Positions 1 through 2,691 of a stretch of DNA of 14,546 nucleotides are shown here, piece after piece. Source of the DNA: an uncultured Candidatus Udaeobacter sp. Its GTDB lineage: Bacteria; Verrucomicrobiota; Verrucomicrobiia; Chthoniobacterales; UBA10450. Position 1 is the first letter of the stretch; every line of letters starts with the position of its first letter. The notes beneath the pieces are model-generated. The model was not told the DNA's origin. It was given only the letters and a program-made list of their open reading frames with translations, and did not search any database. The translations under genes and the position numbers were made by a program. The DNA is taken from the NCBI GenBank assembly GCA_955652715.1, contig CATPBS010000363.1, positions 1 through 14,546 on the forward strand, written 5' to 3'.

Positions 1-112
1 GCATCGGATTAATGACCGCCGACGCCAACAGGCCTTTGCGCCGCAGCAGCGCGGGGAAATCGCCGGCTGCGCCAGAAAAATTCTGGTCGAGCGCCACCGG
101 TGAGCGTTCCAT
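1..112 (-). CDS. Probable proteasome beta subunit (PrcB), N-terminal propeptide, partial
   Basis: The frame opens with an ATG (112-110) whose A is the last base of the preceding UBact stop codon (TAATG), so translation is probably coupled to it. It stays open for 37 codons to the window edge, where the gene is cut. The visible residues begin MERSPVALDQNF and include DFPALLRRKGLLAS. This resembles the removable propeptide of actinobacterial PrcB, which carries a similar short helical stretch (SFTDFLRRQAPELLPAS-like) before the catalytic Thr. In Pup-type loci the gene after pup is prcB, and I recall the same order in UBact loci. Position and propeptide similarity are the only evidence, because the catalytic threonine and the beta-subunit fold lie outside the window. 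It could instead be another protein of the pupylation locus. The Dop/PafA start motif (GIETEYG) is absent, which argues against those two. Confidence 0.55.
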   Translation of the reverse strand, partial: MERSPVALDQNFSGAAGDFPALLRRKGLLASAVINPM

Positions 113-288
113 TACTGACCCGTGCGCTGGCGATAGCGCTTGGATTGGTTGGGATCGACCTTGCGCATCTTCTTCAAGAGGTCTTTCGTGTCCGGTCTCG
201 AAACGTCCGGCGTGCGCGGCCCTCCGCCATCGCCTTGTTTTGGTCCCCACGGAGCCGGCTCTACCGGCTTCTGAATGCGCTCAGCCAT
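112..288 (-). CDS. UBact-type prokaryotic ubiquitin-like modifier (Pup-like)
   Basis: A 58-residue protein starts MAERIQKPVEPAPWGPKQG and ends KRYRQRTGQ. It is very hydrophilic, has no predicted hydrophobic core and carries the Gly/Pro-rich GDGGGPRTPD segment (residues 19-28). A charged helical segment DLLKKMRKVDPNQSKRYRQ (36-54) is followed by the C-terminal Gly-Gln. These are the hallmarks I know for UBact, the Pup-like tag of some Gram-negative phyla including Verrucomicrobia. In that system the C-terminal Glu is joined to lysines of target proteins by a PafA-type ligase, and the tag is read by a ring ATPase feeding a 20S proteasome. A C-terminal Gln, as here, implies deamidation by a Dop homologue first. 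The stop overlaps the next start (TAATG). The frame is open upstream to 525, but that extension is unrelated and lies over the divergent LysM gene, so I chose the ATG at 288. No ligase or deamidase is visible in the window. Confidence 0.88.
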   Translation of the reverse strand: MAERIQKPVEPAPWGPKQGDGGGPRTPDVSRPDTKDLLKKMRKVDPNQSKRYRQRTGQ

Positions 289-293
289 AAAAA

Positions 294-321
294 AATCTAA
301 GAGCAAATATTGGAAAGGCAA
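294..321 (-). promoter_or_regulatory. Possible promoter for the UBact gene, perhaps giving a leaderless mRNA
   Basis: On the minus strand a TTGCCT (321-316) and a TAGATT (299-294) are 16 bases apart; each matches 4 of 6 positions of the sigma-70 consensus. Only five T residues separate the -10-like box from the ATG at 288, and no Shine-Dalgarno sequence is seen there. Initiation six or so bases downstream of the box would fall on or next to the start codon. The match is modest and could be chance in an AT-rich patch. Confidence 0.3.
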
Positions 322-404
322 GCCGCGCATCCGCGTGCGCACGAGATGCAAACGGAAGACGGATGCTTGCCAGACAAATCTGCTAGTGGCAAGGTTTCGG
401 CCCG

Positions 405-869
405 ATGAAGGTGACACGTATTTTTTGTGCGGCATTGGGTTTGGCGTTTTGCACTGCTTCTGCTCAGACACCCGCGCCGGAGGCCGCAAAATCGGCTGAC
501 ACCGCCCAACTCGAAGCGCTGGCAAAAAAAATGGACGAACAGAGCGCCAAAATTGATGCGCTTTCTCAGGAAATCCTCAAGCTAGAGGAACAAGTCTCAC
601 ACATGCGGCCAGGGGTCATGATCGGAGAAAATACACCCTCACCACCACCAAACCCTGCCGTTCCAGCCGCAATTCCGTCACATCCTCTAGCAGGCAACGC
701 GCACATCGTCGCACGCGGGGAGACACTCACCTCCATTGCCAAGATGTACAAAGTGACCGTGGATGAATTGCAAAAAGCGAACCACATCGAAGACGGCCGT
801 AAATTGCAAGCCGGCCAAACCATCTCGATTCCAACATCTGCCACGCCGACGCCAACCCCCGCTGGATAG
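405..869 (+). CDS. Secreted coiled-coil protein with C-terminal LysM domain
   Basis: This is a 154-residue protein. Residues 1-20 form a type I signal peptide (MKVTRIF, a hydrophobic core, then ASA before Gln21). The cysteines at 8 and 16 do not make a proper lipobox, so a soluble periplasmic or wall-associated protein is more likely than a lipoprotein. Residues 34-67 are a heptad-like coiled coil (AQLEALAKKMDEQSAKIDAL and following), suggesting oligomerisation. Residues 75-95 are a Pro-rich linker. Residues 100-143 form one LysM domain (HIVARGETLTSIAKMYKVTV, then LQAGQTISIP), a fold that binds N-acetylglucosamine-containing glycans such as peptidoglycan. No catalytic domain is present, so it is probably an anchoring or structural peptidoglycan-binding protein. 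It diverges from the UBact gene and converges on the ABC exporter with a 10-base gap. An AAGG at 391-394 is the only RBS-like sequence upstream. Confidence 0.85.
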   Translation: MKVTRIFCAALGLAFCTASAQTPAPEAAKSADTAQLEALAKKMDEQSAKIDALSQEILKLEEQVSHMRPGVMIGENTPSPPPNPAVPAAIPSHPLAGNAHIVARGETLTSIAKMYKVTVDELQKANHIEDGRKLQAGQTISIPTSATPTPTPAG

Positions 870-879
870 CCGAATTTCC

Positions 880-2691
880 CTAGACGGCCAATTGCTCCTC
901 TTTCTCCAGCGATTCCGATCCAACGATTTCCGCCGCCGGCTCTGTCTCCCGCACTGGGGAGGCTTCGAGCAAACTTTGCCGGCACAGCCGCGCGTATTTT
1001 CCGCCGAGCGCGAGTAACTCATCGTGCGTGCCGCGCTCGATGATCCGGCCATGATCGAGCACCAAAATTTGGTCCGCGTGCACGATTGTTGAAAGCCGAT
1101 GCGCGATGACAATGGATGTGCGGTTCGCCATCAAGCGGTCGAGCGCTTCCTGAATCAGGCGCTCGGTCGCCGTGTCCACGCTCGCGGTCGCTTCGTCGAG
1201 AATTAAAATCGGCGGGTCTTTCAGCAGTGCCCGTGCAATCGATAGGCGCTGTTTCTCGCCCACGCTCAATTTCACCCCACGCTCGCCCACCACGCTTTCC
1301 AATCCGTCCGGCAAGCGTTCGATAAATTGTCGGGCATTCGCCGCATCCACGGCGCGCCACAATTCAGTGTCAGTCGCGTCCGGTTTTCCCATCAAGAGAT
1401 TTTCGCGAATTGATCCGTTGAAGAGAAAACTTTCCTGAGTCACAACCCCAATTGTTTCGCGCAAAGTGCGCAGTCCATATTCACGAATCGGTTTTCCATC
1501 GATGTAGATTTGTCCGCTGGTGAATTCGTAGAAGCGCACCAGCAGATTTACCAAGGTCGATTTGCCGGCGCCGGTTGCGCCCACCAACGCGACAGTCGTT
1601 CCGGGGCGCGCATGAAAAGAAACGTGCCTGAGCGCCGGCAATCCTTCCACGTAGCTGAAGCTCACGTCTTCGTAGCGAATATCTCCCAGAATTCGCGCCT
1701 TATCCTCGTGATCGGTGATTTCGCCTAGAGCGCCCGTTTCCACTGGTTCGTCAAGAATTTCAAACACGCGTTCGCCAGCGGCGCGTCCGGCTTGGACAAG
1801 TTGGTTCAGTTGATGTAGGCGGCTCACCGGATCGTAGAGGAACGCGGTAAGCATCAGAAACGCAACCAGGTCGCCGATCTGCATTGTGCCTGTCAGCACC
1901 GCGTGACTGCCAAACCCAATCACGAAGAGCGCGCCCATTGCTTCAAACATCGACATTGATGGGCTGTAAATTGCCCATACCCGCATCACCACGAGCGTCG
2001 CATGCCGTAGTTGATCGCTTACACGGTTGAAGCGCGCGTGCTCTTCCCGCTCGCGCACGAAACTTTTAATCTGCCGCACGCCAGCGAGATTATCATGCAG
2101 CAGCGCGTTCATGTTAGAGGAGGCCCGTCGTTGTAAGCGGTAGCGCCGGTGCGCCGTCAGCGTGTACGTGAGCGCGCCGGCAACAAGGAATGGAAATGGC
2201 ACCAGCGCGAGCAATGCCAGCTTGACGTTTAGATAAAACATTACGCTGATGACGATCACCACTTGCAGGACTGCAACCACGCCCTGTTCGATCCCATCGA
2301 TCAACACGCGCTCGACCGAGTTGACGTCCTCAATCACGCGCGTCATCAGGTCACCGGTGGCGCGGTTGTCGAACCAGCGCAACGGCAGCAGTTGAATGTG
2401 CGAATACAGATCGCTGCGCAAATCAAAGATCACCCTTTGCTCGAATGTGTTGTTGAGCACGATGCGCAACGCGTTAAATCCGTGTTGAACAAGAAAAGCG
2501 CCAGCCGCCAGCATGATCAACGGCAGCAATTTGTCCGGCCGATTCGCGCGCACCACATCGTCGATGATCCATTTCGTGGTCGCCGGGAAAACAATCACCG
2601 TCAGTGTGCTTAGGATCGCGCAAGTCAACATCCCGGCAGCCATCCATGGATACCGCTTGAGATAAGCAAAAACGCGCCAAACCGTTTTCAT
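880..2691 (-). CDS. ABC exporter, fused membrane and ATPase domains (MsbA/MDR-like)
   Basis: This 603-residue half-transporter has the type IV exporter layout: a six-helix membrane domain (about residues 15-305) followed by a nucleotide-binding domain (about 338-575). The ATPase motifs are complete: Walker A GATGAGKST (371-379), Q-loop Gln419, signature LSVGEKQ (475-481, a variant of LSGGQ), Walker B ILILDE (495-500), D-loop SVD (504-506) and switch His531. The length matches MsbA and other homodimeric lipid or drug exporters of the inner membrane. Substrate cannot be read from the sequence; lipid A-core flipping (MsbA) is one option and multidrug export another. The last 25 residues are an acidic tail (ETEPAAEIVGSESLEKEEQ) beyond the usual domain end. 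It is transcribed alone, converges on the LysM gene and diverges from folB. No strong Shine-Dalgarno precedes the ATG. Confidence 0.93.
   Translation of the reverse strand: MKTVWRVFAYLKRYPWMAAGMLTCAILSTLTVIVFPATTKWIIDDVVRANRPDKLLPLIMLAAGAFLVQHGFNALRIVLNNTFEQRVIFDLRSDLYSHIQLLPLRWFDNRATGDLMTRVIEDVNSVERVLIDGIEQGVVAVLQVVIVISVMFYLNVKLALLALVPFPFLVAGALTYTLTAHRRYRLQRRASSNMNALLHDNLAGVRQIKSFVREREEHARFNRVSDQLRHATLVVMRVWAIYSPSMSMFEAMGALFVIGFGSHAVLTGTMQIGDLVAFLMLTAFLYDPVSRLHQLNQLVQAGRAAGERVFEILDEPVETGALGEITDHEDKARILGDIRYEDVSFSYVEGLPALRHVSFHARPGTTVALVGATGAGKSTLVNLLVRFYEFTSGQIYIDGKPIREYGLRTLRETIGVVTQESFLFNGSIRENLLMGKPDATDTELWRAVDAANARQFIERLPDGLESVVGERGVKLSVGEKQRLSIARALLKDPPILILDEATASVDTATERLIQEALDRLMANRTSIVIAHRLSTIVHADQILVLDHGRIIERGTHDELLALGGKYARLCRQSLLEASPVRETEPAAEIVGSESLEKEEQLAV

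Follow-up and report, generated by a model that had tools for sequence, protein, structure and literature searches.

Sequence comparison confirmed that positions 112-288 of the window, read on the minus strand, are a gene for the modifier UBact. The window is the whole stretch of DNA analysed (14,546 nucleotides) and corresponds to the entire contig C363 of its own genome bin, G000, which comprises 1.98 Mb in 369 contigs and is 68.85% complete and 2.46% contaminated. The gene is very probably the first of a ubact-prcB-prcA operon acting in a Pup-like tagging and proteasome pathway together with Dop, PafA and a ring ATPase. The Pup pathway served as the model, with deamidation, ligation, unfolding, degradation and removal of the tag by Dop as described in the consulted parts of PMC12288473 and PMC7947786, and all enzymatic reactions, together with the targets and the physiology, are presumed here by analogy with it. 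UBact is predicted to be translated with a C-terminal Gln, which a Dop-type enzyme would convert to Glu. A PafA-type ligase would use ATP to activate the side-chain carboxylate of this Glu and join UBact to lysines of the target proteins. A ring ATPase of the Mpa/ARC type would bind the charged helix of UBact, pull from its disordered Gly/Pro-rich N-terminus and feed the target into the PrcA/PrcB 20S proteasome. The Dop-type enzyme would also remove the UBact tag. The features of the window on which the analysis is based are the following.

1..112, minus strand: start of prcB up to codon 37, encoding the propeptide MERSPVALDQNFSGAAGDFPALLRRKGLL..., truncated by the contig end.
112..288, minus strand: ubact, ATG at 288 and TAA at 114-112, 58-residue product with the C-terminus KRYRQRTGQ.
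289..404, no strand: intergenic spacer that separates ubact from the divergently oriented LysM gene, with the T-rich leader GATTTTTTTATG on the minus strand; likely the promoter region of the ubact-prcB-prcA operon.
405-869, plus strand: LysM-domain gene (Pfam, 54 bits), divergent and upstream of ubact.

An earlier note, made from the letters of the window, had proposed a UBact gene in the short open reading frame 112..288 without giving its strand, and the translation of 288..112 on the minus strand (MAERIQKPVEPAPWGPKQGDGGGPRTPDVSRPDTKDLLKKMRKVDPNQSKRYRQRTGQ) agreed with the 58-residue product and the C-terminus that it gave. In the profile search called for there, both curated models were above their cut-offs: the product scored 82.2 bits with the Pfam UBact model PF20513 (cut-off 27.8, E 2.2e-23) and 84.6 bits with the NCBIfam UBact equivalog NF033388 (cut-off 35, E 4e-24), the match spanning nearly the whole profile length. 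The Pup-family profiles of Pfam and NCBIfam did not match the product at E up to 1, where the UBact models alone were reported, and Pup proper was ruled out as the identity of the tag. No UBact match appeared in a control search over 14 well-known genomes (0/14), and a PDB sequence search with UBact returned nothing up to E 10. The UBact described here is a well-supported new member of an already known tag family and not a new kind of system; the family was reportedly discovered by Lehmann and co-workers in 2017. Like the other proteins covered by PF20513 and NF033388, it has the C-terminal RTG[QE], a short Gly/Pro-rich start and the prcB/prcA neighbour. No difference was seen at the protein level, but here the gene lies away from the ligase genes. 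The warning that annotation could easily overlook the gene was borne out in part: the mechanical list of open reading frames does give a 137-residue frame in its place, but the Pfam and NCBIfam models catch the gene. Since these models recognise it, and Pup-like genes of Verrucomicrobia have been in print since 2008 (PMC2588565, consulted in part), the gene is not an unrecognised one.

Relatives were collected from genome contigs with the pattern [VI][DN]P[NDE]Q[SA][KR]RY, and the best 80 of 300 were kept. Seventy-nine of them are titled Verrucomicrobia or groups within (Chthoniobacterales, Spartobacteria, Udaeobacter and others), the last (L127) being titled only PVC group bacterium; UBact of Candidatus Udaeobacter AEW3 (L050) is 97% identical to that of the window and is among its nearest named counterparts, all from soil bins of Verrucomicrobia. 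The host is accordingly a soil bacterium of the order Chthoniobacterales, probably Candidatus Udaeobacter or a genus close to it.

At the left end of the window, beyond which the earlier note had advised looking for proteasome genes, prcB starts and is cut by the contig end. The proteasome linkage of UBact is direct, prcB beginning within the ubact stop codon: in the window and on contig C236, a single A is both the end of the ubact TAA and the beginning of the prcB ATG (TAATGG). The final 112 bases of the window on the minus strand read MERSPVALDQNFSGAAGDFPALLRRKGLLASAVINPM, the PrcB propeptide, and this start is homologous to that of the prcB gene on C236 (L003:134-958). C236 carries a second ubact copy at its edge, followed by prcB and prcA. 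Contig C187 opens inside a further prcB gene and continues with prcA and two open frames arranged as on C236, the two contigs being 80.2% identical over an alignment of 1,105 bases; prcB overlaps prcA on both contigs. Because a ubact copy is already present on C236, C187 is the better candidate for the continuation of the window contig, although no overlap was found between the window and C187. Among the relatives (best 80 of 300), a prcB motif lies shortly downstream of ubact in 79/80, and none was found downstream of ubact in L081. Upstream of ubact, bases -7 to -5 are identical in 46/46 sequences and most positions beyond -35 are variable; no sigma-70-like promoter consensus was found in window positions 1-900. 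On C236, prcA is followed by genes for an N-acetylmuramoyl-L-alanine amidase and a peptidoglycan-binding protein (L003:1769-3175), and the proteasome operon thus sits among cell-wall genes (LysM, amidase, peptidoglycan-binding).

The genome-wide search suggested earlier for prcA, prcB, PafA-like, Dop-like and ring ATPase genes found all five in the bin, which is a mixed one, each of the five proteins scoring below its NCBIfam equivalog cut-off. For the 20S core, PrcB on C236 gave 170.6 bits with TIGR03690 (cut-off 191.9); PrcA was weak, with 73.8 bits against a cut-off of 139.05 and 21.4 bits with the Pfam Proteasome model, just under 22.4. In the PrcB of C236, residue 53 is the one aligned with residue 1 of mature chains, and the Thr1/Asp17/Lys33 spacing is present in 79/80 loci (best 80 of 300), the pattern having demanded Thr and Asp but not Lys. 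In PrcA, a lysine aligned with QK of the mycobacterial alpha subunit occurs in all 64 sequences that were read from the 80 loci, 57 of them with a pattern and 7 by visual inspection of the same output; we take it to be the counterpart of the pocket lysine of that subunit. Beta-subunit matches were obtained in 29/39 near genomes, all below the family cut-off.

The Mpa/ARC-like ATPase gene adjoins the Dop-like gene on contig C206 (L036:2361-4043), and its product scored 466.9 bits with TIGR03689 (cut-off 504.75), both proteasomal-ATPase OB domains of Pfam being over cut-off. At E 0.001, the control searches matched 14/14 genomes for the ATPase family (1 over cut-off) and 8/14 for the beta subunit (0 over cut-off). 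Since the controls matched so widely, the ATPase and beta-subunit calls rest on score, on the OB domains in the case of the ATPase, and on neighbours, not on the E-value. The ATPase gene is separated from the Dop-like gene by a match to a Y1-type (IS200-like) transposase (L036:1927-2301, G000:C206; 26.7 bits, cut-off 23).

The tail of the own-bin ATPase is SGVI, with neither GQYL nor HbYX. Thirty-five Dop loci were examined, own included (among them G000:C206, L139-L146 and L157-L179), and gave 32 readable ATPase tails. In 31 of these a variable linker leads to a terminal [VI][IV], with no penultimate Tyr. The four loci outside the 31 are L138, L180 and L181, in which no tail was found, and L161, which is frameshifted. 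Position -2 is Val in 30/31 and position -1 is Ile or Val in 31/31, counts that are not independent because the species are related. Entropy is 0.71 and 0.21 bits at -1 and -2, respectively, and 1.60 to 3.06 bits from -3 to -15, with the lowest value of 1.60 at -9. Conservation is much stronger in the last two residues than in the linker, suggesting a docking tail of another kind than the C-terminal GQYL that is required in mycobacterial Mpa (PMC8755798, PMC12288473, both consulted in part). It is conceivable, with the balance slightly against it, that the UBact-associated ATPase of Verrucomicrobia docks on and opens the 20S particle through a tyrosine-free [VI][IV]-COOH tail, its carboxylate contacting the conserved pocket lysine of PrcA, and that the genes of this system have dispersed from the classic locus. 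If this is true, HbYX and GQYL would be joined by a third type of proteasome-activator tail. What may be new here is the scatter of the loci and the absence of tyrosine from the tail; no publication on such an ATPase tail was found in the few searches close to this subject. Bpa/PafE was looked for in the own bin and matched nothing there, but the control genomes gave no match either, so the absence carries no weight.

The same tails are a ground for a competing explanation, in which UBact would be mainly a reversible signal or storage mark with a weak proteasome link, the ATPase no longer docking in the mycobacterial style. The absence of a penultimate Tyr from 31 of 32 tails would fit it, and pupylation loci without proteasome genes exist according to the consulted part of PMC3511204. 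We consider this explanation unlikely: both in the window and on C236 the stop codon of ubact runs into the start codon of prcB, prcB overlaps prcA on C236 and C187, the catalytic residues of PrcB are kept in 79/80 loci (best 80 of 300), and the conserved last two ATPase residues rather point to docking by a different tail.

A tagging pathway that ends at the proteasome, which we prefer, would also need the two ligase-type enzymes, and the bin holds two Pup_ligase homologues, on C206 and C215. The C206 protein is nearer Dop, with 486.2 bits for TIGR03688 (cut-off 492.3) against 400.0 for PafA, and its top PDB match is Dop 4b0r (412.9 bits). By profile the C215 protein is nearer PafA, with 323.7 bits for TIGR03686 (cut-off 551.3) against 300.3 for Dop, and it aligns end to end with PafA 4b0t; its best PDB match is Dop, however (241.9 bits, PafA close behind at 237.5), so that its assignment to one or the other is not firm from the PDB. 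From the first conserved block to residue 84 of 4b0r, where we take the Dop-loop to lie, the C206 protein can be aligned over the entire stretch; the C215 protein has about 25 residues fewer there. This loop is given as a mark of Dop in the consulted part of PMC7947786, where Dop/PafA homologues are also said to occur sporadically in Verrucomicrobia drafts. In the control search, Pup_ligase matched only Corynebacterium glutamicum among the 14 genomes.

The co-occurrence of the tag and the ligase pair was followed in a phylum sample of 387 Verrucomicrobia genomes. PF20513 matched 12/387 at E up to 0.001; ten matches were over cut-off and the other two were weak (23.4 and 22.3 bits) and lay inside long frames. 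Each of the 10/10 genomes with UBact over cut-off contained exactly two Pup_ligase matches, and the other 377 contained a single match of 27 residues, in G375. In 39 near genomes, own included, UBact was found in 28 and Pup_ligase in 31, the ligase occurring without a UBact match in G002, G009 and G013 (91, 75 and 84% complete).

The presence of two ubact and two prcB copies (C363, C236, C187) indicates that bin G000 mixes two related organisms. As the bin is mixed and incomplete, the partner genes on its other contigs possibly come from another cell than the ubact gene of the window. That they all derive from a contaminating organism and that the ubact species has no pathway is nevertheless very improbable. 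Pup_ligase matches occur in 28/28 near genomes with UBact, own included, and lie on at least two contigs in 24/28; the UBact/Pup_ligase pairing recurs in genomes of the phylum that are near-complete or consist of a single contig, and prcB starts in the window itself, beside ubact.

That the 58-residue frame is a chance frame, or is untranslated as such within a real 137-residue, TTG-started gene, can practically be dismissed: the longer frame is open in the window, where UBact matches its last 42 residues, and longer open frames surround the match in other species too, but their length varies from 61 to 251 residues around full-length matches in 39 near genomes (the contig-edge copy of C236 left out), conservation begins at the ATG at 288, and the 84.6-bit equivalog match and a non-synonymous to synonymous ratio of 0.057 speak against both. 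This ratio was obtained from 46 genes at least 85% identical to the window ubact, window included, with mean differences of 0.585 per synonymous and 0.034 per non-synonymous site, and it falls to 0.031 for UBact residues 29-58; the core is partly conserved by choice of the set, given the pattern search, the retention of the best 80 of 300 and the selection of the 46 by identity. In these 46 genes, the DNA 5' of the ATG is poorly conserved except for the T-rich leader, which supports position 288 as the start of ubact. The 137-residue read-through frame was rejected as a gene. In G019, of the same genus, ubact breaks off after DPN and passes, out of frame, into the mature part of prcB (L030, G019:C126), possibly through a real deletion or an assembly fault.

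The C-terminal tail, whose conservation in close relatives the earlier note had put forward as a check, proved constant: RTG[QE] is present in 80/80 relatives (best 80 of 300; 64 RTGQ and 16 RTGE), the last six residues of UBact having lain outside the search pattern. UBact of the window, with RTGQ, has the Gly-Gln/Gly-Glu end for ligation. On a PrcB tree of 78 rows, from which L061 and L081 were absent, 11 changes of the Gln/Glu label are required, and starred branches force at least 7 of these; a looser tree of 77 rows requires 10 changes, at least 5 of them forced. L084 sits on a long branch in either tree, perhaps owing to a frame error. Most shuffles left the label less clustered (5 and 3 of 500 gave a value as low), so that it changed less often than at random, yet more than once.

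Two Pup-ligase homologues were found in 6/6 Glu-ending genomes of the phylum sample (G079, G091, G109, G188, G202 and G300). Among the Glu-ending near genomes, G028 and G038 keep both paralogues and G005 (68% complete) has the PafA-like one only. The presence of Dop does not, on these data, track the Gln ending. The earlier argument that a Gln terminus implies a Dop elsewhere is right for this bin, in that a Dop-like gene exists on C206, but Dop is not inferable from Gln alone because all six Glu-ending sample genomes keep two homologues. Their retention is consistent with the known tag-removing role of Dop, and the natural Gln/Glu switches separate this role from the deamidase role. G028 has a normal ubact-prcB-prcA locus on C5 with the tail RTGE, and also carries a second, more divergent ubact ending in RSGQ (L046:5009-5185, G028:C227). 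No prcB or prcA was seen beside the latter on C227; it is a stand-alone paralogue or lies on a contaminant contig.

The Gly-Glu remnant on lysine proposed earlier as a proteomic signature needs correction. Given the tail R-T-G-Q, trypsin would leave Thr-Gly-Glu, for which an addition of 287.1117 Da was computed; +287.11 Da on lysine is a concrete mass to look for in proteomic data.

The gene arrangement departs from that of the classic loci. In the consulted parts of the literature, the Pup gene is stated to be invariably adjacent to the PafA gene (PMC2588565) and the pup gene order is called "rigidly conserved" (PMC3511204). Of 28 near genomes with both genes, own included, a single one (G027, another family) has ubact and ligase on one contig, about 5.6 kb apart. 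Adjacency of the tag gene to PafA or Dop was not found in the window's family, a count that fragmented bins weaken; the near-complete G051 and G202 of this family (about 20 and 10 contigs, respectively) have ubact, Dop and PafA on three contigs. No paper on a Udaeobacter proteasome was found in the literature search. The bin resembles the actinobacterial Pup-proteasome system (Pup, Dop, PafA, Mpa/ARC, PrcB, PrcA) in its Gln-ending tag, the homologues of the five partners, the Dop-like and PafA-like paralogues and the PrcB residues Thr1/Asp17/Lys33. It differs in that the tag has no Pup-family match at E up to 1, the ATPase ends in GVI instead of GQYL and the genes are split over separate loci. 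With the Methylacidiphilum pup/proteasome locus, as described in the consulted parts of PMC2588565 and PMC2474590, it shares the phylum, the components and the two Pup_ligase paralogues. In family f15 of the same class, which we infer to be Methylacidiphilaceae, the six sampled genomes have Dop, ubact and PafA clustered within about 5 kb, in contrast to the separate loci of the window's family, and 5/6 of their tails end in Glu.
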